This document shows, piece after piece, positions 3,567 to 29,686 of a stretch of 64,000 nucleotides of DNA. Numbering within the stretch: position 1 is the first letter of the stretch; every line of letters starts with the position of its first letter. The DNA is from Saccharomonospora glauca K62 (GTDB lineage Bacteria; Actinomycetota; Actinomycetes; Mycobacteriales; Pseudonocardiaceae). The position numbers and the translations under genes are program-made. The stretch spans positions 4,419,450 through 4,483,449 of the forward strand of contig NZ_CM001484.1 in assembly GCF_000243395.2 (NCBI RefSeq). Reading direction: 5' to 3'. The notes beneath the pieces were generated by a model, which searched no databases, was not told the origin of the DNA, and was given only the letters and a program-made list of their open reading frames with translations.

Positions 3567-3580
3567 TTACCGCCTAGTAG
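3567..3580. promoter_or_regulatory. fatty-acid regulon operator, copy A (upstream of fadE)
   Basis: TTACCGCCTAGTAG, one of three copies of YTACCGSCNAGTAG in the window. It begins 24 bp before copy B; TATCCT (3581-3586), a good -10 candidate, lies between them. Confidence 0.65.
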
Positions 3581-3590
3581 TATCCTTATG

Positions 3591-3604
3591 TTACCGGCCA
3601 GTAG
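3591..3604. promoter_or_regulatory. fatty-acid regulon operator, copy B (upstream of fadE)
   Basis: TTACCGGCCAGTAG, 77 bp before the fadE ATG. It differs from the fabG4-fadA2 site (29670-29683) at two of 14 positions. Two copies spaced 24 bp suggest two bound dimers around the promoter. Confidence 0.7.
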
Positions 3605-3680
3605 GGCAGTGCTACCGCGTGTCCTGTCCGCGACAGGAGTGCCCAGCCGGAGTGCCGAACGACCCGTACGGAGTGACGAC

Positions 3681-5525
3681 ATGGGCCACTACAAGAGCAA
3701 TGTCCGAGACCTGGAGTTCAATCTCTTCGAGGTCCTCGGCGTGCAGGACCGCCTCGGTAAGGGAGTGCTCGCGGAATCCGACGAGGAGACCGCCCGCGGT
3801 GTGCTGTCCGAGCTGAACAACCTCGCCGTCGGTCCACTCGCCGAGTCCTTCGCCGACGCCGACCGCAACCCGCCGGTCTACGACCCCAAGACCTTCTCCG
3901 CCACGCTGCCGGAGTCCTTCAAGAAGAGCTACCGCGCGCTCTGGGACGGCGAGTGGTGGCGGCTCGGCCTCACTAACAACCTCGGCGGCTTCGGCCTGCC
4001 CCCCACGGTGCAGTGGGCCGCCGCCGAACTGATCCTCGGTGCTAACCCGGCGCTCTACATGTACATGGCCGGCCCGAACTTCGCGATGATCCTCGACCGC
4101 AACGGTACCGAGGAGCAGAAGCGCTGGGCGCGGATCATGATCGAGCGCGGCTGGGGCGCCACGATGGTGCTCACCGAGCCCGACGCCGGTTCGGACGTGG
4201 GCGCGGGCCGCACCAAGGCCATCAAGCAGGAGGACGGCTCCTGGCATCTTGAGGGCGTCAAGCGGTTCATCACCTCGGGCGACCAGGACATGACCGAGAA
4301 CATCATGCACCTGGTGCTGGCCCGGCCCGAGGGCCCCGGCATCGAGCCGAAGCCCGGCACCAAGGGCCTGTCGCTGTTCCTGGTGCCGAAGTTCCACTTC
4401 GACACCAACACCGGCGAGCTCGGCGAACGTAACGGCGTGTTCGTCACCAACGTCGAGCACAAGATGGGCCTCAAGGTGTCCACCACCTGCGAGCTCACCT
4501 TCGGCCAGCACGGCACCCCCGCCAAGGGCTGGCTGCTCGGCGAGGTGCACGACGGCATCGCGCAGATGTTCCAGGTCATCGAGTACGCCCGCATGATGGT
4601 GGGCACGAAGGCCATCGCGACGCTGTCCACCGGCTACCTGAACGCGTTGGAGTACGCGAAGGAACGCGTGCAGGGCCCGGACCTCACTCGGCAGACCGAC
4701 AAGACCGCCCCGCGCGTCACCATCATGCACCACCCGGACGTGCGCCGGTCGCTCATGCTCCAGAAGGCCTACGCCGAGGGGCTGCGCGCGGTGTACCTCT
4801 ACACCGCGTCGTTCCAGGACCAGGTGTGGACGCAGGAGGGCGACGCCGAGTCGCTCGACCTCGCGGAGCGCGTGAACGACCTGTTGCTGCCCATCGTCAA
4901 GGGCGTCGGCTCCGAGCGGGCCAGCGAGCAGCTCATCCAGTCGCTGCAGACCCTCGGTGGTTCCGGCTTCCTGCAGGACTACCCCATCGAGCAGTACATC
5001 CGCGACTCGAAGATCGACTCGCTGTACGAGGGCACCACCGCCATCCAGTCGATGGACTTCTTCTTCCGGAAGATCGTCCGCGACAAGGGCAAGGCCCTCG
5101 GCTACATCGCGGGCGAGATCGTCAAGTTCATCGAGTCCGAGGCGGGCAACGGCCGGCTCAAGAAGGAGCGCGAGCTGTTGAAGCAGGCGCTGGACGACGT
5201 CCAGGGCATGCTCGGCACGATGATCGGCTACCTGACCTCCTCGCAGGAGGACGTCACCAACATCTACAAGGTCGGCCAGAACACGGTGCGACTGCTGATG
5301 TCGGCCGGTGACCTGCTGGTGGGCTGGCAGCTGCTCAAGCAGGCCGAGATCGCCCAGGCCAAGCTGGACGCGGGCGCCTCCGAGAAGGACGTGCCGTTCT
5401 ACAAGGGCAAGCTCGCCGTGGCGTCGTTCTTCGCCAAGACGGTGCTGCCGGAGCTGTCGGCCCGCCGGGCCGTCGTCGAGGCCACCGACAACGACCTCAT
5501 GGAGGTCGACGAAGCGGCGTTCTGA
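3681..5525 (+). CDS. fadE5: acyl-CoA dehydrogenase, FadE5 type
   Basis: A 614-residue FAD-dependent acyl-CoA dehydrogenase catalysing the first oxidation of fatty-acid beta-oxidation. Length and layout match the large mycobacterial FadE5 group rather than the 380-residue short-chain type: an N-terminal helical extension, the flavin/acyl-CoA core with [20 protein letters not shown] and [10 protein letters not shown], the catalytic region [20 protein letters not shown] with Glu in YEGT, and a C-terminal ~130-residue helical extension. The ATG at 3681 lies after a 200-base regulatory gap holding two copies of the operator also found between fabG4 and fadA2. In M. tuberculosis the FadE5, FabG4, FadA2 and HtdX homologues are neighbours; here fadE is 22 kb away yet shares the operator. 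Confidence 0.93.
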
Positions 5526-5550
5526 GGCGCCGTCGACCCGACTCAGGACG

Positions 5551-5589
5551 ACGAGGGGCCACCTCCCCGTGCGGGAGGTGGCCCCTCGT
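5551..5589 (+). terminator. 17-bp perfect hairpin after fadE
   Basis: Arms 5551-5567 (ACGAGGGGCCACCTCCC) and 5573-5589 pair without mismatch around a 5-nt loop. There is no U tract, as is common for high-GC terminators. Confidence 0.8.
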
Positions 5590-5665
5590 GCACGTGTGGG
5601 TTGGCGATCGACAAAGGTGGGTACCTCACTCGGGTCACTGACCCGGTGTTGAAGGAGCAGCCACC

Positions 5666-5941
5666 ATGGCGATTTCGGGAATCATCTCCGCGATAGTGGT
5701 GGGTCTGGTGCTCGGGGCGCTCGCCAGATTGATTCTTCCCGGCAAGCAGAACATCCCCATCTGGCTCACCATCCTCGTCGGAATCGTCGCCGCGTTCCTC
5801 GGCACGGCCATAGCGCGCGGCCTGGGCTACGCCGACACGGACGGCTGGGACTGGCTGGAGTTCATCACGCAACTCGTGGTCGCCGCGATCGGTGTCTCGA
5901 TCACCGCGAGCGTGTACCCGCGCAAGCACATCCGAACCTGA
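5666..5941 (+). CDS. GlsB/YeaQ/YmgE-family membrane protein
   Basis: A 91-residue small membrane protein of the transglycosylase-associated (Transgly_assoc) family with three hydrophobic helices. The first contains the family GALARLILPGKQ motif (AxxxARxxLPGxQ), the second is ILVGIVAAFLGTAIARGLG, the third is FITQLVVAAIGVSITASVY. Related proteins are induced by envelope or general stress and may anchor Asp23-type proteins; no Asp23 gene is adjacent. Gene is monocistronic, flanked by the fadE terminator and a convergent YoaR-like gene. Confidence 0.85.
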   Translation: MAISGIISAIVVGLVLGALARLILPGKQNIPIWLTILVGIVAAFLGTAIARGLGYADTDGWDWLEFITQLVVAAIGVSITASVYPRKHIRT

Positions 5942-6028
5942 AAGGTCACGGGCGACGCGGCAAGAACACTCCCGCCGCGTCGCCTGCGTGGCGACCCGAT
6001 CGGTGGTTCCACAGCCGGCCGTCCGGCA

Positions 6029-7495
6029 TCAGGAGTGGCTGCCCCAGAGGGTGACCCGCACCGTCGACGACAGGGACCGGACGTCCACGGCGACGGCCGT
6101 CTTGGTGTCGTTGGTGAGGATTCCTCCCTCGCCCACCGACAGGCCGGCCTGCTCACCCGCTTCCTCCAACGCCGCCGCCAACGGCGGTGGAGCGCCGTAC
6201 GCCCGCGGGTCCAACGTCTCGCCCGGTCGCACCACCACACCGCTCAGCTGCCCGGCCGCGACGTCCGCACCGGCGAGGTCGGCGGGCGCGTGCCCGCTCG
6301 CCGTTGTGGTGGCGACGATCTCCTCGATTCCCAGCCCACGGATGTCCTCGGTGGTGACGGCAGGTTCCACGGCGTCGTAGAGCACCATGATCTCCCGCTG
6401 ATCCGGCGGTGCCGTCGCAAGCGTTTGCGTCATCCCGGCGAAGGTGCGTTCCCAGTCGATGCGCGTACCTCGCACCGACGGCACCACCACGGGCGCCCCG
6501 TTGCGGAACACGAGCGCGGCGTCCCGCGCGGGACGCTCGGTGGGCCCCAACTCGCCCCGAACGGCGCTGCTCAGCACCGCGTGGTCCAGGGTCACGGCCA
6601 GGCTCGCGCTCCCCCCGTCGTCACGGATCTCGAACCCGAGCGCCTTGTGGATGTCCTCGGGCAGCAACACGGATTCGGCCCCGTCACCGCGCACCAGTAC
6701 GGGACCGTCCAGCAACGGCCGCACGGTGTCCTCCAACACGGCGTGCACGGCCTCCGACGTCAGCCGCGGCCGCAACACCTCCACGGGAAGCTCGATACGG
6801 CTCAACGACGGCCAGTGGGCCCGAACGGCGGCGACGGCGGCGTCCAGGTCCGTCATCCGCGTACCGGCCTTCGGCTCGATCACCCTGGCGGACACCCCGC
6901 CGTCGTCGTGCTCCCCCTCGACGGGTCGCAGCACGATCCCGCCGTCGAGAGCGGGGCGGTTGACACGCTCCCGCGCCACGCGGTCCAACGCGGCCTTCAG
7001 CGCCTTCTCCTCGACGGTGGTCACCAACGGCACCTCGCGACCACCGAACAGCGCGGCGAGTCGGTCCCACGGCAACCACGGCTGTCCGCCCGCCTGTTCG
7101 ACGGTGGCTGTCCAGTCCACCCCGAGGCCGGCCTCCACCGGGTCGAGCGAGACGTCGATCCCCGCGGCGCGCAGCTCCACGGGGCGCGTCACGCGCGGGC
7201 CGAGTTCCCGGCGCAGTTCGGCCTCCGCCTCCTGTTTGTCGAGTCCGCCGATGTCCACGCCGGCGACGGTGACGCCACGAGGCACGTCACCGATACCGGC
7301 CACCAGATCGACCACGTACACCACGGCGAGAAGCCCGATGATGACGCCGAACGCCATCAGGGCGTTGCCGACACCGCGACGCCAGCGAATTCCGGGAGAA
7401 GCCCGACCCCAGTCACGAGTCCCCTCCTCGGGGAGGAACTCGTCGATCACATCGGTCTCGGAGGTGGTTCCCTCGCCGTCGTCAGGACCACCCAT
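6029..7495 (-). CDS. YoaR/VanW-related cell-wall protein, membrane-anchored
   Basis: A 488-residue protein with an acidic cytoplasmic N-terminus, one membrane helix (about 45-66: ALMAFGVIIGLLAVVYVVDL) and an extracytoplasmic region. Two copies of the YoaR-like putative peptidoglycan-binding fold follow: the first opens VPRGVTVAGVDIGGLDKQEA, the second spans LTSEAVHAVLEDTVRPL to FRNGAPVVVPSVRGTRID. The C-terminus (VVVRPGETLDPRAYGAPPPL) resembles the beginning of a VanW domain, but the domain is incomplete, ending about 60 residues later. Likely a cell-wall-associated structural protein. It lies 20 bases downstream of the GroES-like gene on the same strand, so co-transcription is likely. Confidence 0.8.
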   Translation of the reverse strand: MGGPDDGEGTTSETDVIDEFLPEEGTRDWGRASPGIRWRRGVGNALMAFGVIIGLLAVVYVVDLVAGIGDVPRGVTVAGVDIGGLDKQEAEAELRRELGPRVTRPVELRAAGIDVSLDPVEAGLGVDWTATVEQAGGQPWLPWDRLAALFGGREVPLVTTVEEKALKAALDRVARERVNRPALDGGIVLRPVEGEHDDGGVSARVIEPKAGTRMTDLDAAVAAVRAHWPSLSRIELPVEVLRPRLTSEAVHAVLEDTVRPLLDGPVLVRGDGAESVLLPEDIHKALGFEIRDDGGSASLAVTLDHAVLSSAVRGELGPTERPARDAALVFRNGAPVVVPSVRGTRIDWERTFAGMTQTLATAPPDQREIMVLYDAVEPAVTTEDIRGLGIEEIVATTTASGHAPADLAGADVAAGQLSGVVVRPGETLDPRAYGAPPPLAAALEEAGEQAGLSVGEGGILTNDTKTAVAVDVRSLSSTVRVTLWGSHS

Positions 7496-7515
7496 GAGCG
7501 CCTCCCGGATGCCAC

Positions 7516-7869
7516 CTACAGGTAGAGGCCCGTTCCGTGCTCCGTCCGCTCACTGGCGACCGCGTGAATGTCGCGTTCCCGCATCACGAGGTACGCATTG
7601 CCTTGGATCTCGACCTCGAGTTGGTCCTCGGCGTTGAACAACACGCGGTCGCCGACCTTGACGTTGCGTACGTTGTTGCCCACTCCCAGCACGTTGCCCC
7701 AGGAGAGCCGCCGTGCCACCTGGGCGGTCGCCGGGATCACGATGCCACCGGTGCTGCGCCGTTCACCGTCCTCCGGCGGCATGCGCACGAGCACCCGGTC
7801 GTGCAGCATCTGGATTTCGAGCTTGGCGTCCGAGGCGAGTGGACCGTTGCTTTCTGACACGTCATTCAT
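7516..7869 (-). CDS. GroES-like co-chaperonin paralogue
   Basis: A 117-residue single-domain chaperonin-10 fold protein. It keeps the core strand LHDRVLVRMPP, a mobile loop with RRSTGGIVIPATAQ (hydrophobic tripeptide that binds GroEL in true GroES), GNVLGVGNNVRNVKVGDRVLFNAEDQ, and VMRERDIHAV. Differences from housekeeping GroES: 17 extra N-terminal residues, a shortened roof region, and a 12-residue C-terminal tail. No groEL is adjacent. It may be a GroES-like protein with a private client or partner. Upstream lies the convergent end of nothing: the thioredoxin-NHL gene on the same strand ends 48 bases before it. Confidence 0.85.
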   Translation of the reverse strand: MNDVSESNGPLASDAKLEIQMLHDRVLVRMPPEDGERRSTGGIVIPATAQVARRLSWGNVLGVGNNVRNVKVGDRVLFNAEDQLEVEIQGNAYLVMRERDIHAVASERTEHGTGLYL

Positions 7870-7917
7870 GCTACGTCGCGGTAAGGAAACGAAACGGGTC
7901 CCGGTACCGACCTCTGC

Positions 7918-9822
7918 TTACTCGGCCGGAGTTCCCGCCATGACGAGAGGCAATCCCTCGGCCCCTTGCGATTCGATCCGTACGGGGACTCCCCAGTCCT
8001 GGCGAGTGATCCGGCACACCGGGTGCTCCGCGTCGGTGGCACAGCTCGCGGCCTGTGCCACCACCTGGAGTACTCCACCCTCCACGTCGGAGGCGAGCGT
8101 GACGGTGCGTTCGAGATCGGTGCCGACGCCTCCACCGTCGACCAGCAACTCCGGCGGCGAGGCACTGACTTCGAGGCGGGTGGAAGGACCGTACCGGTCG
8201 TCGAGCTTCTCCCCCGGCGGCGGCACGAACGTCACCGTCAGCCGGACCTGCCCCGGCGCGAGCACCGTGGGCGGGCGCCGCACGGCCAGCTCGGCGCCGT
8301 CGACGACCTCTCCCTCCGAGTCGTCCTCACCGCTGTCCAGGGGACGCAGTCGATGCGCCGCCGACTCCACGACGAACACCCCGCTGTCGGTGACGACGAG
8401 GTCGGAGGGCTCCGCCAGGTCACGCAGCAACGTGGTGACCTCGCCGGTGTCGGGGTCGAACCGCCGCACCGCGCCGTTGTACGTGTCGGCCACGCCGATC
8501 GCACCGTCGGGCAGCACGGTGATTCCCAAGGGGTGTTGGAACAGCGCCGAGTCGGCGGCTCCGTCGCGGTGGCCGAAGGTGAATAGGTCGTGCCCCACGG
8601 CGGTGCCCACGACGAACCCGTCCCCGGTGTCGTCGCGCTCCACGTACCGCAGGGCCGAGGTCTCGGCGTCCACCAGCCACAACCGGTCGCCGGCCACGGC
8701 CAGCCCAGAGGTCTGGGCGAAGAACGCCTCGGCGGCGGGGGCGTCCCGGAGGCCCTCCACGGTGGTGCCCGCGAACCGCGAGATCGTGCCCTCGATCGGG
8801 TCGAACAGTCCGAGGGTGTGGTTGCCCGCCATCGCCACCACGACTCCGCCCGCGACGTCCCACCAGCGCACGTCCCACGGGCTCGTCAAGTCGACGTCGA
8901 GGGCGGGGCCGGAGTCGTCGCCGTCGCGCCACTGCCGCCCGGTGCCCGCGACGGTCCGCACCGCGCCCGTGCGCAGGTCGACACCCCGGAGCAGGTGGTT
9001 GGCGGTGTCGGCGATGAGCAGGTGGTAACCGACCCGGTCGGCGACATGCGTGGGGAGCAGGGTCAGCCCCGACGGCTCCGCGAAACGCGCGACGTCGAAC
9101 GCGCCGTCCACCGAACCCCTTCGACCGTCGCCGAAACGACGCAGCAAGGTCTCGACGTCGGAGGCGAACTCCGCGATCGAGTGGTTGGCCGTGTCCGCGA
9201 CCAGCACCCGACCCTCGGCCGTCACCACGGCCTTCGACGGGAACCGCAGGCCGTCGAGCCACCCACCGCGGTTGTCGGCCGCGGCCCGCGCCGCCTCGCT
9301 CGGGTCGAACGCGCCCCGGCGCAGGGTGCCCTTCTCCTCGTGGAGGGCGACGAGGTCGCCGATCACCCGGCGCAAGGCGTCACCGTGTCCCTCACCCGCG
9401 GCGACGTGCGCCACGTAGCCCTCGGGGTCGACGACCACGAGCGTCGGCCACGCCTTCACGGCGTACTGCTGCCACAGGCTCATGTCCGGGTCGCTCACCA
9501 CCGGGTGGTCCACGCCGAGCCGCCCCACGGCGGCGGCCACGGAGTCCCGACCACCCTCGTGGGCGAACTTCGGGGAGTGCACGCCCACGGTGACGAGCAC
9601 GTCGGCGAACTCCTCCTCCAGGGGCCGCAGCTCGTCGAGGACGTGCAGACAGTTCACACACCCCGAGGTCCAGAAATCGAGGAGGACGATCTTGCCTCGC
9701 AGCCCGGCGAGCGTCAGCGGTTCGCCACCGGTGTTCCACCAGGCGTCGCCGGTCAACTCGGGCGCCCGCACTCGGGCACGGGGCTTCGACTGCTCAACAC
9801 TCACGACGGGAGTCAACAACAC
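7918..9822 (-). CDS. thioredoxin-like / NHL-repeat protein (NHLRC2 type)
   Basis: A 634-residue fusion. Residues ~15-165 form a thioredoxin-like domain with the redox motif FWTSGCVNCLHVLDEL (Cys55 and Cys58) and a cis-Pro region (VKAWPTLVVVDPEGY). Residues ~190-500 hold NHL beta-propeller repeats, recognisable by VLVADTANHSIAEF, LLIADTANHLLRGV and IGVADTYNGAVRRF. A C-terminal ~110-residue region (RRPPTVLAPGQVRLTVTFVP) is a beta-rich extra domain. This is the architecture of bacterial relatives of human NHLRC2. No signal peptide, so it is likely cytoplasmic. GTG at 9822 follows a GGGGGG stretch; a second GTG at 9804 is possible. Confidence 0.9.
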   Translation of the reverse strand: MLLTPVVSVEQSKPRARVRAPELTGDAWWNTGGEPLTLAGLRGKIVLLDFWTSGCVNCLHVLDELRPLEEEFADVLVTVGVHSPKFAHEGGRDSVAAAVGRLGVDHPVVSDPDMSLWQQYAVKAWPTLVVVDPEGYVAHVAAGEGHGDALRRVIGDLVALHEEKGTLRRGAFDPSEAARAAADNRGGWLDGLRFPSKAVVTAEGRVLVADTANHSIAEFASDVETLLRRFGDGRRGSVDGAFDVARFAEPSGLTLLPTHVADRVGYHLLIADTANHLLRGVDLRTGAVRTVAGTGRQWRDGDDSGPALDVDLTSPWDVRWWDVAGGVVVAMAGNHTLGLFDPIEGTISRFAGTTVEGLRDAPAAEAFFAQTSGLAVAGDRLWLVDAETSALRYVERDDTGDGFVVGTAVGHDLFTFGHRDGAADSALFQHPLGITVLPDGAIGVADTYNGAVRRFDPDTGEVTTLLRDLAEPSDLVVTDSGVFVVESAAHRLRPLDSGEDDSEGEVVDGAELAVRRPPTVLAPGQVRLTVTFVPPPGEKLDDRYGPSTRLEVSASPPELLVDGGGVGTDLERTVTLASDVEGGVLQVVAQAASCATDAEHPVCRITRQDWGVPVRIESQGAEGLPLVMAGTPAE

Positions 9823-10110
9823 CCGGCCCCCCCAGTGTTCCGTGGGGTGACCCGTCCGAGTCGGTCGTCACGCCCCGGCCGGCTCGAACCCGCCCGACGC
9901 GGTGACGACGCGGTGTCACCCGCTCCGGTCCACACTCCGTTGTGGACCGATTCGGGTGGCTTCGCGGACCTTCTGACTCAGGGAGTCGGTGTCGGGCGGA
10001 GGGAAACCCTGGTGCCCACGACCTGAGCCGTGGTAGTTTTTTTACGCATAAGAAAATATGACTTCGCCACGGCGGCCACCGGGCCGCGTCGATCCGCGAC
10101 GGGAGTGGTC
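9823..10110. other. intergenic region with AT-rich promoter island
   Basis: No gene visible. The distal part (about 10032-10062) is strikingly AT-rich for this genome, with a T7 run followed by ACGCATAAGAAAATATGA, and is probably the promoter/operator of the divergent MFS gene. No convincing ORF or RNA seen. Confidence 0.4.
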
Positions 10111-11397
10111 ATGAGCACCAACACCCCGAAAGCCACTGACAAAAAAAGCCGATCTTGCTGGTCTGCCTGGCCGTGTTCGGCCTGATGGTGGGCCAGCAGA
10201 TGGTCACACCGATCCTCGCCCCGCTCGCGCGCGAGCTCGGTTTCAGCGAGCTCGCCATGGGCGTCGTGATGGCCGTCAGCGCCTCGGGCGTGGTGGTCGT
10301 CAGCTCGTTCTGGGGCCGCCGCGCGGCCGCGTGGGGACACCGGCCGGTGCTCCTGATCTCGGTCGTGGGTGCCATGCTCGGACTGCTGACGTCCGCGGTC
10401 GTGGCCCAGGTCGGACTCACCGCCACGCTCGCCCTGCCGGCGCTGTTCGCGCTGTTCCTGCTCACCAGAGGCTTGGTGTTCGGACTCTTCTGGGGAGCGA
10501 CCCCCGTCACCGCGCAGTCCTATGTGGCTGACGTGACCGACGGCGAGGGCGAGCGGGTCCGCGGTATGTCCATGGTCGGCGCGGCGCAGGGACTCGCCTT
10601 CGCGGTCGGCCCCGCGCTCGGCGGGCTGTTGAGCGGCTCGGGACTTCTCGCCCCGATGTACGCGGCTCCGGCCCTGCTGGTGGTGATCGCTCTCGTCCTG
10701 TGGCGGGTCCTGCCCAAACCCCCCGGCACGCCGGGAACGCCCCGTCACCGTGAAGGTGAGCCCCTTCGACCGCCGCATGTGGCCGTTCCTGATCACCGGG
10801 TTCGGCATGTACCTCGGCCTCACCGTCGCCCTGATGACGGTGGGATTCCTCCTGCAGGACCGGATGCACCTCACCGTGGGGGAGACCGGACGAGCCAGCG
10901 GACTGGTGCTGCTGGCCGCCGCGGGCATGGTCGTGATCGTCCAAGCCGTGGTGGTGCCACGGCTGGGCTGGCCGCCGGCCCGCTTCATGCGGCTCGGCAC
11001 GGCGCTGATGACCCTCGGCGCACTCGTCACGGCGATCGCGCCGAACCAGCCCTTGCTCGCCGTGGGCTTCGCCGTGCTCGGCACGGGGTTGGGCTTCGGC
11101 CTTCCCGGTGTGATGGCCGCACCGACCCTGCTGGCCACCCGCGAAGAGCAAGGCGCGGTGGCCGGACTCGTCAGTGCCGGCACCGCGCTGACCTTCGTCG
11201 TGGGTCCGATCGTCGGCAGCGGCCTGTACGAGATCGCCCCCACCCTCCCCTACGCCCTGGTCACCGTTCTCCTGAGCGCGCTGACGATCTTCACCTTCGT
11301 ACATCCCGCGGTGCGTCAGACCTCTGCCGTGGCGGCCAACGGCGCACCCGACCCTGGGACGGTCGAGGAACCGCGACCGGCCAACACCCCGACGTGA
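10111..11397 (+). pseudogene. MFS transporter, broken by two homopolymer indels
   Basis: Once joined, this encodes a ~428-residue 12-helix major facilitator carrier. The ATG at 10111 follows GGGAG, but its frame stops within 90 bases. At 10141-10147 an A7 run must be read as A8 to join MSTNTPKATDKK to KPILLVCLAVFGLMVGQQM. The first six helices then run in another frame until a C6 run at about 10718-10723; read as C5 it gives LPKPPARRERPVTVKV and rejoins the last six helices (from MKVSPFDRRMWPFL at 10750), which stay open to the stop at 11397. Motif A-like WGRRAAAWGHRP follows helix 2. The two lesions compensate (-1/+1). Could be sequencing errors, slippage-controlled expression or a decayed gene. 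Likely partner of the TetR gene downstream. Confidence 0.75.
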
Positions 11398-13326: not shown

Positions 13327-13327
13327 T

Positions 13328-20013: not shown

Positions 20014-20050
20014 GATGTCACTCCTCGTAGTCCCATACCGGCCAGTTCAA

Positions 20051-21918: not shown

Positions 21919-23130
21919 ATGTCGTCCCCAGAACAGTGGACGCGCCCGCAGTCCGGCGCCGGATCAGCCGCGACAGCGGCACGACCGTCCCCGGAACAGG
22001 TGATAGCGGGTTTGCGAGCGACCAGCGAAGGCGGAGCTGAACTCACCCAGCTCCTCACTCCCGAAGGCGAACGCCTGTCGTCGGAGCAGTTCGATCCCTA
22101 CATCGCCGACATCGACGCCGAGGCGCTGCGCGGTCTCTACCGCGACATGGTCATCGTCCGGCGAGCCGACCGCGAGTCCAACGCCATGCAGCGGCAGGGC
22201 CAGCTCGGCATCTGGGTCCCGTTGCTCGGCCAGGAGGCCGCCCAGGTCGGCTCGGGGCGAGCCCTGAAGCCGCAGGACATGGCGTTTCCCAGCTATCGCG
22301 AACACGGCGTCGCCTACACCCGCGGGGTCGATTTCAAGGAGCTGCTCGGCATCTTCCGCTGCACCGACCACAGCAGCTGGGACTTCCGCAAGCACCGGTT
22401 CCACCCGTACACCATCGTGATCGGCAACCAGGTGCTGAACGCCGCCGGCTACGCGATGGGGCAGAAGTTCGAGGGCAAGGTCGGCGACGACCCCGACGCC
22501 GAGGCCACCATCGTCTACTTCGGTGACGGCGCCACCAGCCAGGGCGACGTCCACGAGGGCTTCGTGTGGGCCGCCGTGTACGACGCGCCGCTGGTGTTCT
22601 TCTGCCAGAACAACCAGTGGGCCATCTCCGAACCCACCGAACGTCAGTCGCGCCTGCCGCTCTACCAGCGGGCTCGCGGCTACGGCTTCCCCGGCATCCG
22701 GGTCGACGGCAACGACGTGCTCGCCTGTCTGGCGGTCACCCGCTGGGCGCTAGACGAATGCCGCAGGGGCAACGGACCGGTGCTCATCGAGGCGTTCACC
22801 TACCGGATGGACGCCCACACCACCACCGACGACCCGACCCGCTACCGGCTGTCGGACGAACTGGAGGCGTGGAAGCTCAAGGACCCGATCGAGCGCGTGC
22901 GGGTGCACCTGTCCCGCACCGGAGGCGCCGACGCGGCGTTCTTCGAGGAAGTACAGGCCGAGGCCGACCGGTTCGCCGCCGAACTCCGCGACTACTGCTT
23001 CAACATGCCCGACCCGCCGCCCGAGCGGGTCTTCTCCGCCGTCTACGCGGAACCGTCACCGTTGCTGGAGGCCCAGCGCGAGGAATACCTCTCCTATCTC
23101 TCCGGCTTCGTCGATGGAGGTGAGCGTTGA
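21919..23130 (+). CDS. bkdA: branched-chain 2-oxoacid dehydrogenase E1 alpha
   Basis: A 403-residue thiamine-diphosphate-binding subunit of a 2-oxoacid dehydrogenase complex, which decarboxylates 2-oxo acids from valine, leucine and isoleucine. The ThDP motif runs from YFGDGATSQGDVHEG to QNNQWAIS (GDG-x~26-NN). The substrate-side block FPSYREHGVAYTRGVD and the phosphorylation-loop-like TYRMDAHTTTDDPTRYR are typical of E1 alpha of BkdA/PdhA type. ATG at 21919 follows AAGGAG at 5 nt. The E1 beta start overlaps its stop (TGATG). Pyruvate as a substrate cannot be excluded. Confidence 0.92.
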   Translation: MSSPEQWTRPQSGAGSAATAARPSPEQVIAGLRATSEGGAELTQLLTPEGERLSSEQFDPYIADIDAEALRGLYRDMVIVRRADRESNAMQRQGQLGIWVPLLGQEAAQVGSGRALKPQDMAFPSYREHGVAYTRGVDFKELLGIFRCTDHSSWDFRKHRFHPYTIVIGNQVLNAAGYAMGQKFEGKVGDDPDAEATIVYFGDGATSQGDVHEGFVWAAVYDAPLVFFCQNNQWAISEPTERQSRLPLYQRARGYGFPGIRVDGNDVLACLAVTRWALDECRRGNGPVLIEAFTYRMDAHTTTDDPTRYRLSDELEAWKLKDPIERVRVHLSRTGGADAAFFEEVQAEADRFAAELRDYCFNMPDPPPERVFSAVYAEPSPLLEAQREEYLSYLSGFVDGGER

Positions 23131-24170
23131 TGGCGGCGCCCGTGAACGCCAAGCCCGCGACCCCGACCACCCAGGCGGCCACGAACGTGCAGAACCTCAC
23201 CATCGGCAAGGCCCTCAACGCGGGTCTTCGGGCCGCGATGGAAGCCGACGAGAAGGTCATCGTGATGGGCGAGGACGTCGGCAAGCTCGGCGGTGTCTTC
23301 CGCATCACCGACGGTCTCCGGAAGGACTTCGGCGAACACCGTGTGCTCGACACGCCGCTGGCGGAGTCGGGCATCGTCGGCACCGCGGTCGGGCTCGCCG
23401 TCCGCGGGTTCCGGCCGGTGTGCGAGATCCAGTTCGAGGGGTTCATCTTCCCCGCCTTCGACCAGATCTCCAGCCAGCTCGCGAAACTGCACTACCGCAC
23501 CCAGGGCGCCATCAAGGTGCCCGTGGTGATCCGGGTGCCGTTCGGTGGCGGCATCGGCGCGGTGGAGCACCACTCCGAGTCTCCGGAGTCGCTGTTCGCG
23601 CACATCCCCGGCCTGAAGGTCGTGTCGTGCTCCAACCCGGTCGACGCCTACTGGATGATCCAGCAGGCCATCCAGTGCGACGACCCGGTGCTGTTTTTCG
23701 AGCCGAAGAAGCTCTACCACTCGGGCGCGCTCAAGGCGCCGGTGGACCCGTCGGCCACTCCCGACCCGCTGTTCGCGTCGCGCGTCCTGCGGCAGGGCAC
23801 AGCGGCCACGCTGGTGGCGTACGGCCCCTCGGTGCAGGTGTGTCTCGCCGCGGCCGACGCGGCCGCGGAGGAGGGCACCGAGCTTGAGGTCATCGACCTG
23901 CGCACGCTGTCGCCGCTGGACCTGGAGCCGGTGTTCGAGTCGGTGCGCCGCACCGGGCGTCTGATCGCCGTCAGCGAGGCGTCCTCGGAGGCGTCGCTGA
24001 CCTCCGAGATCGCCGCTCGTGTGCAGCAGGAGTGCTTCTACTCGCTGGAGGCACCCGTGCTGCGGGTGACCGGCTTCGACACGCCGTACCCGCCGTCCAA
24101 GTTGGAGGAGCACTTCCTGCCGGACCTCGACCGAGTGCTCCACGCCGTCGACCGCGCTCTGGAGTGGTGA
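23130..24170 (+). CDS. bkdB: branched-chain 2-oxoacid dehydrogenase E1 beta
   Basis: A 346-residue transketolase-type E1 beta subunit that forms the alpha2-beta2 E1 with the preceding product. Family blocks are VIVMGEDVGKLGGVFRIT, LDTPLAESGIVGTAVGLA, EIQFEGFIFPAFDQI and the catalytic-loop RVPFGGGIGAVEHHSESPES with paired His. The last third is the transketolase C-terminal domain (VIDLRTLSPLDLEPVFESV). An N-terminal Pro/Ala-rich extension of ~22 residues precedes the domain. GGAGG lies 10 bases before the ATG. Confidence 0.92.
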   Translation: MAAPVNAKPATPTTQAATNVQNLTIGKALNAGLRAAMEADEKVIVMGEDVGKLGGVFRITDGLRKDFGEHRVLDTPLAESGIVGTAVGLAVRGFRPVCEIQFEGFIFPAFDQISSQLAKLHYRTQGAIKVPVVIRVPFGGGIGAVEHHSESPESLFAHIPGLKVVSCSNPVDAYWMIQQAIQCDDPVLFFEPKKLYHSGALKAPVDPSATPDPLFASRVLRQGTAATLVAYGPSVQVCLAAADAAAEEGTELEVIDLRTLSPLDLEPVFESVRRTGRLIAVSEASSEASLTSEIAARVQQECFYSLEAPVLRVTGFDTPYPPSKLEEHFLPDLDRVLHAVDRALEW

Positions 24171-24179
24171 GGGGGAGAC

Positions 24180-25553
24180 ATGCCCGAGTACAAGCAGTTT
24201 CCTCTCGCCGACACCGCCGAAGGACTGACCGAGGCCGAGATCGTCGAGTGGAAGGTCAAGCCCGGCGACGAGGTGACCGTCAACCAGATCGTCGTGGAGA
24301 TCGAGACGGCGAAGGCCGCCGTCGAACTGCCGATCCCGTGGGCCGGAGTGGTCACGGAACTCCTGGTGGAGCCGGGCCAGACCGTGGAGGTGGGCACGCC
24401 CATCCTGACGGTGGACGTCGACCCGCACGGCACGGCGAGCCCGTCGACGAACGGGTCGTCCCCCTCCTCCGCCGCACCGAGCGAGGCGGCGGACGAGGAG
24501 ATGAAGCCGCTCGTCGGATACGGGTCGAAGGCGACGTCCAGCAAGCGCAGGCCACGCAAGCGGCCCGGAGGAGCACCGCAACCGACGGCCACCGGTACGA
24601 AACCGACCTCGGTCCAGATGGTCAAGCCGAGGCAGGCTCCCGACGACATGTCGAGCCCGGCACCGTCCGCGTACGTGCCGCTGGCGAAACCGCCGGTACG
24701 CAAGTTCGCGAAAGACCTCGGGGTCGACCTGCGCACGGTGACGGGCTCGGCCTCCGGCGGTGTCATCACCCGCGAGGACGTGCTCCGTGCCGCGGAGGGC
24801 GCCACCACCGAACCCACCGCGACGGCTCCGACCGGGTCGTCGTACGACCCCGCCACCCGCGAGCGGCGCGTCCCCATCCGTGGGGTCCGCAAGGCCACCG
24901 CCCAGGCGATGGTGCACAGCGCCTACACCGCGCCGCACGTCACGGAGTTCCTCACCGTCGACGTGACCCCGATGATGGAGCTGCGCGACAAGCTCCGGCG
25001 TACTCCCGAGTTCGCCGACGTCAAGTTGACCCCGCTGGCCTTCGCGGCCAAGGCCGTGTGCCTGGCGGTCAAGCGCACTCCGGACGTCAACGCGGTGTGG
25101 GACGAGGACGCCGGCGAGATCGTCTACAAGGACTACGTGCACCTCGGTATCGCGGCGGCCACTCCGCGCGGTCTCGTGGTGCCCAAGGTCCGCGACGCCG
25201 ACGCCAAGTCGCTGGTGGAGCTCGCGCGTGACATCGGTGAGCTGACCACCACGGCCCGAGAGGGCAAGACGCCGCCGGAGGACATGCTGAACGGCACGTT
25301 CACCATCACCAACGTCGGCGTGTTCGGGGTCGACACCGGAACCCCGATCATCAACCCCGGCGAGTCGGCCATCCTGGCGCTCGGAGCGATCAGGGACATG
25401 CCGTGGGTGGTGGACGGTGAGCTCGCGGTGCGCAAGGTCATGCAGCTTTCGCTGAGCTTCGACCACCGCGTGATCGACGGACAGCAGGGCTCGCAGTTCC
25501 TCGCCGACGTGGGAGCGCTCCTGGCCGACCCGGCCATGGCGATCACGTACTGA
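24180..25553 (+). CDS. bkdC: branched-chain 2-oxoacid dehydrogenase E2 (lipoyl acyltransferase)
   Basis: A 457-residue E2 core subunit. One lipoyl domain (residues 1-80) has the modified lysine in EIETAKAAVELP. A long Ser/Pro/Lys-rich linker (~85-160) leads to the peripheral-subunit-binding domain (VRKFAKDLGVDLRTVTGSAS ... GVITREDVLRAA, ~172-207). The catalytic domain (~235-457) ends with the active-site motif SFDHRVIDGQQG, His and Asp present. One lipoyl domain fits BCKDH-type E2. The gene follows E1 beta by 9 bases. No E3 gene is present; E3 must come from elsewhere. Confidence 0.93.
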   Translation: MPEYKQFPLADTAEGLTEAEIVEWKVKPGDEVTVNQIVVEIETAKAAVELPIPWAGVVTELLVEPGQTVEVGTPILTVDVDPHGTASPSTNGSSPSSAAPSEAADEEMKPLVGYGSKATSSKRRPRKRPGGAPQPTATGTKPTSVQMVKPRQAPDDMSSPAPSAYVPLAKPPVRKFAKDLGVDLRTVTGSASGGVITREDVLRAAEGATTEPTATAPTGSSYDPATRERRVPIRGVRKATAQAMVHSAYTAPHVTEFLTVDVTPMMELRDKLRRTPEFADVKLTPLAFAAKAVCLAVKRTPDVNAVWDEDAGEIVYKDYVHLGIAAATPRGLVVPKVRDADAKSLVELARDIGELTTTAREGKTPPEDMLNGTFTITNVGVFGVDTGTPIINPGESAILALGAIRDMPWVVDGELAVRKVMQLSLSFDHRVIDGQQGSQFLADVGALLADPAMAITY

Positions 25554-25680
25554 CGGCGTCGTTCCGGCTCGCCGGGGCATCGGCCCCGGCGGGCCGGGAC
25601 CCGATGACGAGTTCGTCGGGGAACACCGTGCCCACCAGCTTCACGGTCGGGTGAGCGGCGCCGGACCGAGCCAGCTCCAC
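25543..25680 (-). other. 45-codon coding-like stretch in frame after NUDIX stop
   Basis: From GTG at 25680 this reads MELARSGAAHPTVKLVGTVF and on to DAVST, with third codon positions almost all G or C. TACTCT lies 9-10 nt upstream. It is in the same frame as the NUDIX gene, separated only by that gene's TGA and 11 codons, and overlaps the bkdC end by 11 bases. It may be a small gene, a decayed C-terminal domain or readthrough extension. Confidence 0.3.
25570..25591 (+). terminator. hairpin after bkd operon
   Basis: CGCCGGGGC (25570-25578), loop ATCG, GCCCCGGCG (25583-25591); 9 bp, no U tract. It overlaps the small convergent ORF described separately. Confidence 0.6.
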
Positions 25681-25713
25681 GCACCGTGAGAGTAACGACT
25701 CGTGGGTGACCGT

Positions 25714-26112
25714 TCAGTCGATCAGGGACTTCGCCGCCAGGTGGTCGAGCACCGAACGGCTCACGGCCGACACGAGGGAGCGGTCGGCGTGGCCGAGCCA
25801 GCGCAGCTCCTCGATCTCGCTGTTCGGCGCGAGCGTGCCCTCGTAGTCGGCGGTGTAGCACGTCATGCGCACCACGACGTCGGGGTCCCGACCGTGCGCG
25901 GGCGCCTCGAAGGTCCCCACCAGGGACTCCGTGCCACGCACGACGGTGACGGAGAGCTCCTCCGTGACCTCGCGGACGAGCGTGTCGATGTCGGACTCCC
26001 CCGGCTCCCGCTTGCCACCGGGCAGGTAGAAGGTGTCCTTGCCTCGGGAGCGGGCGGCGAGGACCCGACCGTCCTCGACCCTGACCCACGCCACCTTGTC
26101 GATGTTGCGCAT
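25714..26112 (-). CDS. NUDIX hydrolase
   Basis: A 132-residue pyrophosphohydrolase. The Nudix box is GKREPGESDIDTLVREVTEE (G-x5-E-x7-R-E-U-x-E-E), with Ser in place of the last Gly. The N-terminus RNIDKVAWVRVEDGRVLAA is the usual strand, and C-terminal LRWLGHADRSLVSAVSRSVL a helix. Substrate unknown; the group resembles small 8-oxo-dGTP/housecleaning enzymes. TAGCCT ends 6 nt before the ATG, a leaderless start. Downstream sequence in the same frame continues to look coding after the stop. Confidence 0.9.
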   Translation of the reverse strand: MRNIDKVAWVRVEDGRVLAARSRGKDTFYLPGGKREPGESDIDTLVREVTEELSVTVVRGTESLVGTFEAPAHGRDPDVVVRMTCYTADYEGTLAPNSEIEELRWLGHADRSLVSAVSRSVLDHLAAKSLID

Positions 26113-26118
26113 GCGAAA

Positions 26119-26124
26119 AGGCTA
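26119..26124 (-). promoter_or_regulatory. -10 box, leaderless promoter of NUDIX gene
   Basis: TAGCCT on the minus strand, 6 nt before the ATG at 26112. Confidence 0.5.
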
Positions 26125-26170
26125 GAGCCGGATCGGGAGCAAATCGTCCGTCCCACACGTTGAACGGGAC

Positions 26171-26650
26171 ATGGCCGCCATATTCCTGCTCTGGGTGATC
26201 GCCGAGATCGCCGCGATCTGGGCCGTCGCGTCGCTCATCGGTTTCCTCGCCACGCTGGGCCTGCTGGTCGCCGGCGCCCTCGTCGGCTCCTGGCTCGCCA
26301 GGCGGGAGGGCGGCAAGGCCATGCGCGCGGTGTTGGACACGGCGCGCGCGGGCCGGTCCCCGTTGGGGGAGGTCACCGACGGCATGTTGATCGGCCTCGG
26401 TGGCCTGCTGATCTTCGTTCCCGGTTTCGTGAGCGACGTCGCGGGTCTGTTGTTGCTGCTTCCGCCCACCCGAGCCGTCGCACGCCGCCTGTGGCTGAGG
26501 CGGTTGGAACGGCGGGGCCCGATGACCCCCCACGGGTTCGGGAGCTTCTCCCGGAGCGGGCGCGTGATCGTCGTGGACAGCGAGGTCGTCGACACCTCCC
26601 ACGACGACCGGCGCGAGCCTCCCCAGCGCCCCGTCATCGAATCGGAGTGA
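26171..26650 (+). CDS. fxsA: FxsA-family membrane protein
   Basis: A 159-residue membrane protein with four hydrophobic segments. The first block (MAAIFLLWVIAEIAAIWAVA) and the second (FLATLGLLVAGALVGSWLAR) match FxsA, as does the later DGMLIGLGGLLIFVPGFVSD and LLLLLPPTRAVARR. FxsA in E. coli lowers F-plasmid exclusion of phage T7 when overproduced; its normal role is unknown. The C-terminal ~50 residues are charged and cytoplasmic. Confidence 0.88.
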   Translation: MAAIFLLWVIAEIAAIWAVASLIGFLATLGLLVAGALVGSWLARREGGKAMRAVLDTARAGRSPLGEVTDGMLIGLGGLLIFVPGFVSDVAGLLLLLPPTRAVARRLWLRRLERRGPMTPHGFGSFSRSGRVIVVDSEVVDTSHDDRREPPQRPVIESE

Positions 26651-26717
26651 TCGCACCCCGGATCGCCCCGGCCGACGTCCCGCTCGGGTAGGTTTGGCCG
26701 GACGACAGGAGGTGCTG

Positions 26718-27383
26718 GTGGCGCAGGACGTGCAGCGCTCGCCCGAGCGGGCTAAGCGGCTTCCCCGTGCGGTCCGAGAGAAGCAGATTCTCGACGCCGC
26801 CGTGAAGGTGTTCTCCCAGTACGGCTACCACCTCGCGTCGATGGACGAGATCTCGGACGTCGCGGGCGTGTCCAAGCCGATGATCTACAGCTACCTCGGT
26901 GCGAAGGAGGAGCTGTTCGGCCACTGCGTACGCAGGGAGGCGAACCGGATACTCACCGCCGTACGCGAGGGCATTCGGGTCGACGTACCCCCGGACATGC
27001 AGCTCTGGCACGGTCTGCGTTCGTTCTACGGCTTCGTGGCCGACTACCGGGAGTCGTGGCTCGTGTTGCACCGCCACGCCCTCACCGCGGGCGGCCCGTT
27101 CGCCGAGGAGGTCGTGGCCCTGCGCAGCCGCGCCATCCGACTGGTCAGGGATCTCGTGGTGTCGGCGGGCACGGAACGGGGACTCGCCTCGCAGGCGGAG
27201 TTCTCCGGGGAAGGCATGGCCGCCGCGCTGGTCGGAGCGGCCGAGTCGCTGGCGGACTGGTGGCTCGATCACTCCGACGTGCCCGCCGGGGTGCTGGCGT
27301 CGTGGCTGATGAACCTCACGTGGCTGGGCTTCAACGACCTGGTGGAGGGCGACGTGTGGCGCCCCACCGAGCAGCCGGAGTGA
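26718..27383 (+). CDS. TetR-family regulator, candidate for the fad/fabG4 operator
   Basis: A 221-residue TetR repressor. The HTH block reads QILDAAVKVFSQYGYHLASM, DEISDVAGVSKPMIYSYLGA, followed by KEELFGHCVRREANRIL; the ligand domain is all-helical (~70-215), with TEROS-like ending ASWLMNLTWLGFNDLVEGD. GTG at 26718 follows AGGAGG at 5 nt. It lies immediately beside the MaoC-FabG4/FadA2 locus, as a TetR gene (Rv0238) does beside the equivalent M. tuberculosis genes. Its own promoter region contains a GTAGGTT half-site (26688-26694), so autoregulation is possible. Assignment to the operator is inference. Confidence 0.88.
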   Translation: MAQDVQRSPERAKRLPRAVREKQILDAAVKVFSQYGYHLASMDEISDVAGVSKPMIYSYLGAKEELFGHCVRREANRILTAVREGIRVDVPPDMQLWHGLRSFYGFVADYRESWLVLHRHALTAGGPFAEEVVALRSRAIRLVRDLVVSAGTERGLASQAEFSGEGMAAALVGAAESLADWWLDHSDVPAGVLASWLMNLTWLGFNDLVEGDVWRPTEQPE

Positions 27384-27422
27384 CCGCCCGGCGGGGCTTG
27401 CCGCACGAGGTCGGAGCTCGGG

Positions 27423-28283
27423 TCACGCGGTGATCGTGCCCCGCAGGTGCGGTTTCGGCTTGCGGGCGTGCCACAGTTCGAACGACCAGCCGTTCTCACC
27501 CGTGCGCCACGTCGTGAACGCCACCTTCGCGGGCAGGAACACCGGCAGTTGGAACCGCACGTCGACGGTGTAGGCGTCCGGCAACCTGCCCTCGAACGCG
27601 GCGAGGCACCGGGCCTTCGTCCACATGCCGTGCGCGATGGCCGACCGGAACCCGAAGGCTCGCGCGGTCAGTTTGTGCAGGTGGATGGGGTTGCGGTCGC
27701 CCGAGACCTCGGCGTAACGCCGACCGATGTTCCCCGGAACCGGCCACACGGCGCTCGGCGCCGGCGGCGCGAGTTCCGTCTTCTTCGCCGACGAGCCGCC
27801 CGAGCCGGGGCCCCGGTGCAGGTATGTGCTCACGTCCGTCCACACCGGAGTACCCGTGGCGTCGAGTTCCGGCGCGAGCTCGCTGATCACGTCGAACTGC
27901 GTGCCCTTGTCGTGCGGCCGCAGGTTCTCGGCCCGCACCCGCAACGTGAACTTCTCGTCGAGGCGCACCGGCCGGTGCTGGGTGATGCGGTTGGCGATGT
28001 GCACCATGCCGAGCAGCGGGAACGGGAAGTCCGGCTGCGTCATCAACGCCATCTGGAGCGGGAAGGCGAGGACGTGCGGATACGTGGCGGGCAGGTCGTC
28101 GGTGAGCCGGAACCCGCACACGCGGTTGTAGGCGGCGAGGTGCGCCGGGTCGACGGTGACGCCTCCCCGCACGTACTCGGTGTCCGGGAGCGTGTCACCC
28201 GCGGCCTTGCGCAGTCCCCCGAGCACCGCCTTCGGGTACAGCGTCGCGAGGCTGGGCGAGCTGGTCAGTTCCTTCACCGTCAT
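27423..28283 (-). CDS. htdX: MaoC-like 3-hydroxyacyl dehydratase (HtdX type)
   Basis: A 286-residue double hot-dog protein that would hydrate 2-enoyl-CoA or dehydrate (3R)-hydroxyacyl thioesters. The C-terminal half contains the hydratase-2 motif VSGDRNPIHLHKLTARAFGF with catalytic Asp and His, then SAIAHGMWTKARCLAAFEG. The N-terminal half lacks the catalytic pair, as in HtdX. It starts 3 bases after the fabG4 stop, so the two are cotranscribed from the operator-bearing intergenic region. It converges with the TetR gene. Confidence 0.9.
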   Translation of the reverse strand: MTVKELTSSPSLATLYPKAVLGGLRKAAGDTLPDTEYVRGGVTVDPAHLAAYNRVCGFRLTDDLPATYPHVLAFPLQMALMTQPDFPFPLLGMVHIANRITQHRPVRLDEKFTLRVRAENLRPHDKGTQFDVISELAPELDATGTPVWTDVSTYLHRGPGSGGSSAKKTELAPPAPSAVWPVPGNIGRRYAEVSGDRNPIHLHKLTARAFGFRSAIAHGMWTKARCLAAFEGRLPDAYTVDVRFQLPVFLPAKVAFTTWRTGENGWSFELWHARKPKPHLRGTITA

Positions 28284-28286
28284 GTG

Positions 28287-29630
28287 TCATGCCCCCAGGA
28301 AGCCCTGGCCGCACACGCGGACGACGTTGCCGTTGACGGCGGCCGACGCGGGGTTGGCGTACCAGGCGATGGTCTCGGCGACGTCCACGGGCAGACCGCC
28401 TTGCGCGAGGCTGGACAGGCGGCGACCGAACTCCCGGATCATGAGCGGCACCTTGGCGGTCATCTGGGTCTCGATGAAGCCCGGCGCCACGGCGTTGATC
28501 GTGCCGCCGCGTTCGGCCATGCGCGGGGCCGCCTCGTTGACCATGCCGATGACACCGGCCTTGCTGGTGGCGTAGTTCGACTGCCCCACGTTGCCCGCGA
28601 TGCCCGCGATGGAGGACACGCCGATGATCCGGCCGCCCTCCCTGAGCACGCCGTCGGCGAGCAGCTTGTCGTTGACGGCGAGCTGGGCGGCGAGGTTCAC
28701 GGTGATCACCGCGTCCCAGGCCGACTCCGACATCTTCGCCAGCGTCTTGTCGCGGGTGATGCCCGCGTTGTGGACGACGATGTCGACCCCGCCGTGCCGC
28801 TGGGTGAGGTGGTCGGCGAGCCGCTGCGGGGCGTCGTCGGCCGTGATGTCGAGCTGCAGCGCCGAGCCGTGCACGCGGTTGGCCACGGCCGACAGTTCGC
28901 CGCCTTGCGCCGGGATGTCGAGCGCCACGACGTGGGCGCCGTCGCGGGCCAGCACCTCCGCGATGGCCGCGCCGATGCCTCGCGACGCACCCGTGACCAG
29001 CGCGACCTTGCCGTCGAGGGGCTTGGCCCAGTCAGCCGGCGCCTGCGCGGTCTTCGTACCCACGGTGCCGACCCGGATCACCTGGCCGTCGACGAACGCC
29101 GACTTCGCCGAGAGCAGGAACCGCGTGGTCGACTCCGACGCCTCCTCCGCGCCGGCGGCGACGTAGACGAGCTGGGAGGTGGCGCCGCGCTTGAGTTCCT
29201 TGCCCACCGTGCGGGTGAAGCCTTCGAGCGCGCGCTGCGCGATGCGTTCCCGCCCCTCCACGAGTTCGGGGGGAGTGCCGAGGACGACCACCCGACCGGA
29301 CGGCCCAATGTCGCGGATAACCGGGTGGAAGAACGAGTACAGCTCGCGAAGCTGTGTCGGGTCGGTGATGCCGGTGGCGTCGAACACGAGCGCGCCGTAG
29401 CGGGTGCCCTCGGACGGGGCACGCACGATCTCGATACCCGCCGAGTCGAGCTGGGCGGCGAGCGTCTTCTCCAGCCTGCCACCCGGCGCCGCGCCCAGAA
29501 GTGCGGGACCATCGAGTGGTGGCTGGCCGGGTCGGTAGCGCCGCAGCACGGGCGGTTTGGGCAGCCCCAGCTTCGACGTGGCGAACTTGCCGAGGGGTGT
29601 CCTGGTGAACTGCTGGTACTTGTCAGCCAT
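28287..29630 (-). CDS. fabG4: high-molecular-weight 3-oxoacyl reductase FabG4
   Basis: A 447-residue short-chain reductase that reduces 3-oxoacyl-CoA or -ACP. The N-terminal ~200 residues form a degenerate flavodoxin-like domain typical of HMW FabG. The catalytic Rossmann domain starts KVALVTGASRGIGAAIAEVL and has the Ser-Tyr-Lys set in GVSSIAGIAGNVGQSNYATS-K. A conserved C-terminus (ANPASAAVNGNVVRVCGQGF) completes the fold. ATG at 29630 follows GGGAGG. It is divergent from fadA2, separated by 103 bases bearing the shared operator. Confidence 0.93.
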   Translation of the reverse strand: MADKYQQFTRTPLGKFATSKLGLPKPPVLRRYRPGQPPLDGPALLGAAPGGRLEKTLAAQLDSAGIEIVRAPSEGTRYGALVFDATGITDPTQLRELYSFFHPVIRDIGPSGRVVVLGTPPELVEGRERIAQRALEGFTRTVGKELKRGATSQLVYVAAGAEEASESTTRFLLSAKSAFVDGQVIRVGTVGTKTAQAPADWAKPLDGKVALVTGASRGIGAAIAEVLARDGAHVVALDIPAQGGELSAVANRVHGSALQLDITADDAPQRLADHLTQRHGGVDIVVHNAGITRDKTLAKMSESAWDAVITVNLAAQLAVNDKLLADGVLREGGRIIGVSSIAGIAGNVGQSNYATSKAGVIGMVNEAAPRMAERGGTINAVAPGFIETQMTAKVPLMIREFGRRLSSLAQGGLPVDVAETIAWYANPASAAVNGNVVRVCGQGFLGA

Positions 29631-29666
29631 CGGTTGCCTCCCGTGCCCAGTGTGCAGCGCCAGCCT

Positions 29667-29686
29667 AACCTACCGGCGAGTAGGTT
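29667..29686. promoter_or_regulatory. operator between fabG4 and fadA2
   Basis: AACCTAC-N6-GTAGGTT, a perfect 7-bp inverted repeat containing CTACCGGCGAGTAG (29670-29683). TACACT (29686-29691) is a -10 candidate for fadA2 and TAGGCT (29662-29667, minus) for fabG4, so a bound repressor would block both. Confidence 0.75.

Follow-up and report, generated by a model that had tools for sequence, protein, structure and literature searches.

Two TetR regulators that sense acyl-coenzyme A (acyl-CoA) are the closest described counterparts of the system considered here, a set of three operators before fatty-acid degradation genes of Saccharomonospora glauca K62, in a stretch of 64,000 nucleotides (contig NZ_CM001484.1, positions 4,419,450 to 4,483,449) referred to below as the window. 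Mycobacterial Rv0238, or FdmR, is according to the passage of PMC12403877 that cites Dong 2021 a repressor of genes for fatty-acid degradation and modification that responds to long-chain acyl-CoA; it is mentioned too in PMC10501769 and PMC9301340. The other regulator, FasR (Rv3208), acts on fas-acpS (Lara 2020, PMC7382501). A TAC-N6-GTA palindrome was described by McGuire 2012 (PMC3388012) in clusters of two to three sites upstream of Rv3229c, Rv3230c and Rv2524c (fas), with a regulator that is not named there. The three operators of the window, two before the acyl-CoA dehydrogenase gene fadE5 and one between the divergent genes fabG4 and fadA2, are by their sequence TAC-N6-GTA operators, an already published class that acyl-CoA-sensing TetRs would read. 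What is new here is that the fadE5 operators are far more widespread than FdmR, FasR being the strongest candidate for a shared reader. The reading that we favour, at a probability of roughly 0.6, is that the fadE5 pair is an older operator read by FasR, and probably by FdmR too where it is present, and that the fabG4/fadA2 site would be FdmR's.

The resemblance to the mycobacterial FdmR regulon, as outlined in that passage, lies in the fatty-acid degradation genes, in the reported response to acyl-CoA and in a TetR next to fabG4-fadA2 that is of the same clade type. The two differ in that fadE5 here lies about 21 kilobases (kb) from the TetR gene, the fdmR promoter has a half-site only, and the fadE5 operator is wider in distribution than FdmR. 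With FasR and fas-acpS, as set out in PMC7382501, the window shares the TAC-N6-GTA core, an acyl-CoA-sensing TetR and clustered sites, whereas the published target there is fatty acid synthesis, which is activated, and the genes here belong to beta-oxidation and have sites that overlap the promoter as a repressor's would. The palindrome of McGuire 2012 likewise forms clusters before fatty-acid genes, but fadE5 and Rv0244c are absent from the text of that paper, and etfB, fabG4/fadA2 and class-wide conservation lie outside its palindrome section (PMC3388012).

Conservation of the fadE5 operators

Exact matches to YTACCGSCNAGTAG in the 4.56-megabase genome are limited to the three 14-mers listed in Table 1, which lie where the preliminary description of this DNA had placed them, the third within the inverted repeat reported there. 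At up to two mismatches the window holds 9 matches against 2.39 expected, a number reached by 0/100 shuffles (the script's shuffles preserve single-base composition only). Across the genome, a scan at up to one mismatch returned 12 matches, fewer than the 28 of the reversed control pattern; the loose matches are therefore noise, and the pattern alone is not predictive. The genome scan that had been proposed as a check thus set the three sites apart by the exact pattern, but its one-mismatch matches stayed below the control. A weaker match had also been pointed out at 20035; it is present, but with three mismatches and a broken right arm it is taken for chance and was rejected as an operator. 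Because the pattern was derived from these very sites, the real test is conservation.

The relatives examined were the best 80 of 301 orthologous fadE loci, by their titles mainly Pseudonocardiaceae, and all 80 carry the motif at up to two mismatches, no further than some 120 bases from the start. These loci served to train a position matrix, which was then run on loci outside the training set. In the order, 113 genomes have a fadE5 match and 98 of them lie outside the window's family; the promoters of 96 were fetched (G065 and G086 were not), and locus L224, where the contig ends at the gene, was left out. A site was present in 95/95 of the resulting loci, each with a score reached by 0/100 shuffles. 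Of 79 genomes searched across the class, 61 have a fadE5 match, five of them belonging to the window's own order, and among the 40 fetched of the remaining 56 the operator precedes fadE5 in every one, its score being reached by 0/100 shuffles in 38 and by 1/100 in 2. The proposed check on related genomes therefore found the operator kept in 215/215 fadE promoters scanned. The exact core TACYNNNNRGTA occurs at the fadE5 promoters of 80/80 relatives, and within the order in 30/30 loci of FdmR-bearing genomes and 65/65 loci of genomes without FdmR. Second fadE5-like copies in family f8, which is probably Mycobacteriaceae, have no operator in the 3 of 11 fetched (L241-L243), where the best scores were reached by 40-99/100 shuffles; these paralogues may differ in control.

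FdmR itself is far less widely distributed. Matches at FdmR level (at least 109 bits) were found in 46/121 genomes of the order, with none above 88 bits in the other 75, and in 6/37 class genomes outside the order. None of 40 TetR loci from 35 genomes lacking such a match fell inside the FdmR clade. It is thus probable that the fadE5 pair, kept far more widely than FdmR, is read by a second and older regulator as well.

Architecture of the fadE5 promoter

The two fadE5 operators keep a fixed relation to each other and to the promoter. Their spacing in the 80 related loci is 24 base pairs (bp; 68 loci) or 25 bp (12 loci), an arrangement found in 0/400 shuffled promoters. The -10 candidate that the preliminary description saw flanked by the first two sites does sit between them as TATCCT, and TANNNT stands between the operators in 80/80 related loci, in 56 of them as the same TATCCT. 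A TTG lies 17-18 bp upstream of the -10 (offset -10/-11 from the distal core) in 73/80. The -35/-10 spacer therefore holds one operator and the second covers the inferred start, a geometry that suits repression by blocking. A -10 merging with the distal operator, TAATAT, was weighed as an alternative and set aside, since TANNNT stands at +13 in every one of the 80 loci and agrees with a spacer of 17-18 bp. Elsewhere the tandem is less regular, being found in 23/30 FdmR-bearing and 51/65 FdmR-less loci of the order and in 29/40 loci of other orders, where TANNNT at +10 is commoner (24/29). The gene at 2596-3477, whose product by eye resembles regulators of the LuxR type, stops 90 bp short of the fadE5 operators.

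The window TetR and the fabG4/fadA2 operator

Both PF00440 and PF21943 score above cutoff in the TetR of the window. The nearest solved proteins are 3f1b, followed by 6o6p and 6o6n, the latter two of which we take to be FasR entries. In a tree of 71 TetRs the protein falls in a clade of 30 (99/94), apart from a second clade of 30 (100/99), whose members have a DUF3107 gene as neighbour, as FasR does. By clade and neighbourhood, the window TetR is of the FdmR (Rv0238) type. This agrees with the preliminary description, which had inferred operators for a TetR that probably releases on an acyl-CoA and had pointed to Rv0238, and the published role of FdmR points the same way; the regulator inferred there is largely known already from mycobacteria. 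Family f8 was represented by TetR matches at 109-134 bits, absent from the 71-TetR tree, which lie 5-16 kb from fadE5 in 12/14 genomes and on another contig in 2, a spacing that resembles the arrangement of Rv0238 and Rv0244c. No plasmid match was found for the window TetR gene, and a single-sequence AlphaFold model of the protein (mean pLDDT 55) was not used.

Orthologous fdmR promoters carry the operator in 25/30 cases at 0/60 shuffles (26/30 by score with other starts), with the exact core in 15/30, and those of f8 in 3/14 at 0/60 shuffles, with the exact core in 4/14. The window genome (26640-26718) and its three nearest tree neighbours (L121-L123) have lost the autoregulatory operator or keep no more than a half-site of it. 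Given the operators in orthologous promoters, the half-site GTAGGTT, which had been noticed before and is indeed present, looks like the remnant of one. An operator in its own promoter is not a defining feature of the FdmR type.

Between divergent fabG4 and fadA2, the operator is present in 22/22 FdmR-bearing genomes tested, the window's included, which fits FdmR and makes it a putative site of the window TetR. In 8 genomes without FdmR, fadA2-fabG4 is a co-directional operon and no site was found before fabG4. Before fadA2 in the same 8 genomes, a site of the form GTTAC..GTAAC is present in 2 and none was found in 5 (130-226 bases available), while the remaining one offered only 75 bases. Upstream of fadA2 in genomes lacking FdmR (L307-L312), a different palindrome of the GATAC..GTATC kind can be seen by eye.

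Two forms of the operator

The sites differ in the base just outside YTAC and in the offset between tandem copies. The outer base is C in 50/54 fabG4 half-sites and in 26/44 fdmR half-sites; at fadE5 it is G in 375/670 half-sites (three groups) and C in 108, and at etfB, discussed below, G in 44/54. Tandem copies are offset by 16 bp at fdmR and fabG4, and mostly by 23-26 bp at fadE5. Together these features suggest two overlapping specificities, and the proximal fadE5 site of the window is a hybrid, with G in the left arm and C in the right. Outside family f1, to which the window genome belongs, the outer base G/A/T/C at fadE5 was counted as 70/23/14/9 in FdmR-bearing and 144/55/7/28 in FdmR-less loci.

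FasR as a candidate reader

FasR is present in 25/25 order genomes tested and in 36/37 class genomes, these 37 being among the 40 whose fadE5 promoters had been scanned. The orthologue of the window genome lies at G000:C1:715202-715453 on the minus strand, and a second tree groups it with the FasRs of further f1 and f8 genomes in the FasR clade (18 rows, 99/99). A DUF3107 gene adjoins FasR in 47/48 loci outside f1, L431 and L453 being too short and dropped from the comparison of DUF3107 and FasR promoters. The gene beside FasR (Rv3208) in Mycobacterium tuberculosis, Rv3208A, is presumably the same DUF3107 neighbour. FasR promoters themselves carry a site at 0/60 shuffles in 12/25 order loci, among them that of the window genome (TACCCACGAGTA), and in 7/28 class loci.

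A link to FasR comes from the 25-bp oligonucleotide co-crystallised with the M. tuberculosis protein (PMC7382501). Its second strand contains TACTGGCGAGTT and TACGTACGGGTA, both with a single mismatch to TACYNNNNRGTA; among 200,000 shuffles of the oligonucleotide, one such core arose in 3,793 and two in 0. Furthermore, TACGTACGGGTA is one base off the site TACGTACGAGTA in a relative's fdmR promoter (L131), and the recognition helices of FdmR (SKPMIYSYL) and FasR (SKPVLYQHF) have SKPxxY as a common core. A search of the literature accessible here found no report linking FasR to fadE5 or etfBA. Two other candidates were rejected: the TetR at G000:C1:3408526 lies outside the FasR clade, next to what looks by eye like a Baeyer-Villiger monooxygenase gene, and the binding consensus given for MadR in PMC8872791, TCTGTGxxxxxxxGT, is a different motif.

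Weighing the explanations

The mechanism that we infer, in binding, ligand and sign of regulation alike, is one in which dimers of acyl-CoA-sensing TetRs would read all three TAC-N6-GTA sites. Dimers on the two fadE5 operators, 24 bp apart, would block RNA polymerase, and long-chain acyl-CoA would release them and turn beta-oxidation on. The window TetR would read the fabG4/fadA2 operator, and FasR the older fadE5 pair, which FdmR would probably share in the lineages that have it. The single TetR that the preliminary description assigned to all three sites keeps its place at fabG4/fadA2, where the operator accompanies FdmR in every genome tested, but as the sole reader at fadE5 it is not supported: the sites there are equally kept in genomes of the order without FdmR (65/65) and in other orders (40/40), where FdmR-level matches occur in 6/37 genomes.

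Several observations weigh against an older fadE5 pair read by FasR and a fabG4/fadA2 site belonging to FdmR. A clear site is absent from the FasR promoters of 13/25 order and 21/28 class loci, and where sites exist their outer base lacks the preference for G (G 5, C 8, A 5, T 4 of 22); both leave the link to FasR an indirect one. The fadE5 operator of one class genome (G184) comes without a close FasR, and DUF3107 is beside FasR in 0/7 f1 loci, the window genome's included. What PMC7382501 reports for FasR is activation of fas-acpS rather than repression of beta-oxidation. At fabG4, the comparison of genomes with and without FdmR is confounded by the operon in the 8 genomes without it, and 2 of these have TAC-N6-GTA before fadA2.

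If FdmR alone repressed at all three sites and released them on long-chain acyl-CoA, fadE5 would have to be read in some other way wherever FdmR is absent. The portrayal of FdmR in PMC12403877 as a repressor that acts on fatty-acid degradation genes and responds to acyl-CoA is in keeping with this, as is the occurrence of the same core in fdmR's own and fabG4 promoters, but the fadE5 sites are unlike the FdmR-linked ones in outer base and tandem offset and, outside f1, look alike with and without FdmR; we regard this explanation as unlikely. A further possibility is a third TetR of the same core specificity that reads fadE5 and etfBA class-wide, the sites of FasR and FdmR merely being similar. 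The FasR promoters without an operator in many lineages would be consistent with it, and one site in this genome adjoins another TetR gene (L025); such a protein would, however, need a spread equal to that of FasR (no search aimed at such a TetR was made), and the FasR oligonucleotide already matches the core, and we hold this to be quite improbable. Chance likeness of three 14-mers in a GC-rich genome might appeal to the loose matches, which are no commoner than the reversed control, but it is refuted by the presence of the site in every orthologous fadE promoter scanned, and we give it next to no credence.

Starting from the favoured reading of a FasR-read fadE5 pair and an FdmR-read fabG4/fadA2 site, a broader proposal can be offered tentatively. 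The two-operator fadE5 promoter might be a device of the whole class Actinomycetes, read by FasR as an ancestral brake on beta-oxidation, with FdmR as a relative that arose later and captured a share of the regulon, its sites having C in place of G as outer base and 16-bp tandems, and with a secreted cutinase, or poly(ethylene terephthalate) (PET) hydrolase, as a gain of the Saccharomonospora regulon.

Other candidate sites in the genome

Sites of the symmetrical form precede etfBA (L022) and genes for an acyl-CoA dehydrogenase (L025), an enoyl-CoA hydratase (L023), citrate synthase (L029) and the cutinase (L010). The symmetrical-form pattern gave 18 and 13 sites against control counts of 9 and 10, which means that roughly half the single sites could be due to chance. 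A similar pattern in four genomes without FdmR was found at 7, 16, 6 and 13 sites, the controls giving 8, 4, 3 and 9, and is enriched in some only. Of the five candidates, etfB and the cutinase were followed across genomes. At etfB the exact core is present in 26/30 genomes tested, and 25/30 have a site at 0/60 shuffles. The palindrome ACCTACTCGCGAGTAGGT (L025:1500-1511, G000:C1:3534829) lies between the acyl-CoA dehydrogenase gene and that of a TetR with a double helix-turn-helix, which is SACE_7040-like and scores below the cutoff for the SACE_7040 family.

The operator CTACCCGCCGGTAG (G000:C1:3301488-3301501; L010, L473) lies about 100 bp before the cutinase/PETase gene, which is identified by a match to 4wfi, 'Cutinase', and by Pfam PETase; the 4wfi protein is presumably Cut190. 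A site is present in 5/5 congeners that gave a match, lying 117-122 bases upstream of the matched start and showing paired changes in its centre, and the exact core occurs in 2 further genomes among 30 loci examined. This predicted operator suggests acyl-CoA control of a polyester hydrolase.

Table 1. Positions of the operators, promoter elements and genes discussed in the text; numbers are window positions unless a locus is given.
Feature	Position	Strand	Remarks
-35-like element TCGCCT	3557-3562	+	relatives mostly TTGCNN; degenerate in the window
Distal fadE5 operator TTACCGCCTAGTAG	3567-3580	+	between -35 and -10
-10 element TATCCT	3581-3586	+	between both operators; TANNNT conserved at this offset
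Proximal fadE5 operator TTACCGGCCAGTAG	3591-3604	+	covers the transcription start inferred from the -10
fadE5-like acyl-CoA dehydrogenase, 614 amino acids	3681-5525	+	Pfam acyl-CoA dehydrogenase domains, orthologues
Half-site GTAGGTT before the TetR gene	26688-26694	+	probable remnant of an autoregulatory operator
FdmR-type TetR regulator (Rv0238 type)	26718-27383	+	Pfam TetR_N and TetR_C_46, tree clade
HtdX-like MaoC dehydratase	27423-28283	-	Pfam MaoC_dehydratas; name htdX from the preliminary description
FabG4-type 3-oxoacyl reductase	28287-29630	-	NCBIfam NF006110 above cutoff
-10 candidate TAGGCT	29662-29667	-	abuts AACCTACCGGCGAGTAGGTT; by eye
Operator AACCTACCGGCGAGTAGGTT between divergent fabG4 and fadA2	29667-29686		AACCTAC-N6-GTAGGTT
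fabG4/fadA2 operator CTACCGGCGAGTAG	29670-29683		inside AACCTACCGGCGAGTAGGTT
-10 candidate TACACT	29686-29691	+	abuts AACCTACCGGCGAGTAGGTT; by eye
FadA2-type thiolase	29734-31092	+	NCBIfam NF006740 above cutoff
Operator before etfBA	L022:1501-1512 (G000:C1:3340774)		

Implications

Should FasR read the operators of fadE5 and etfBA, synthesis and breakdown of fatty acids would come under a single acyl-CoA sensor in most of the class, and FdmR would become a test case of how a related regulator divides an old regulon. The predicted cutinase operator would offer a direct route to how a PET-degrading enzyme is switched on.

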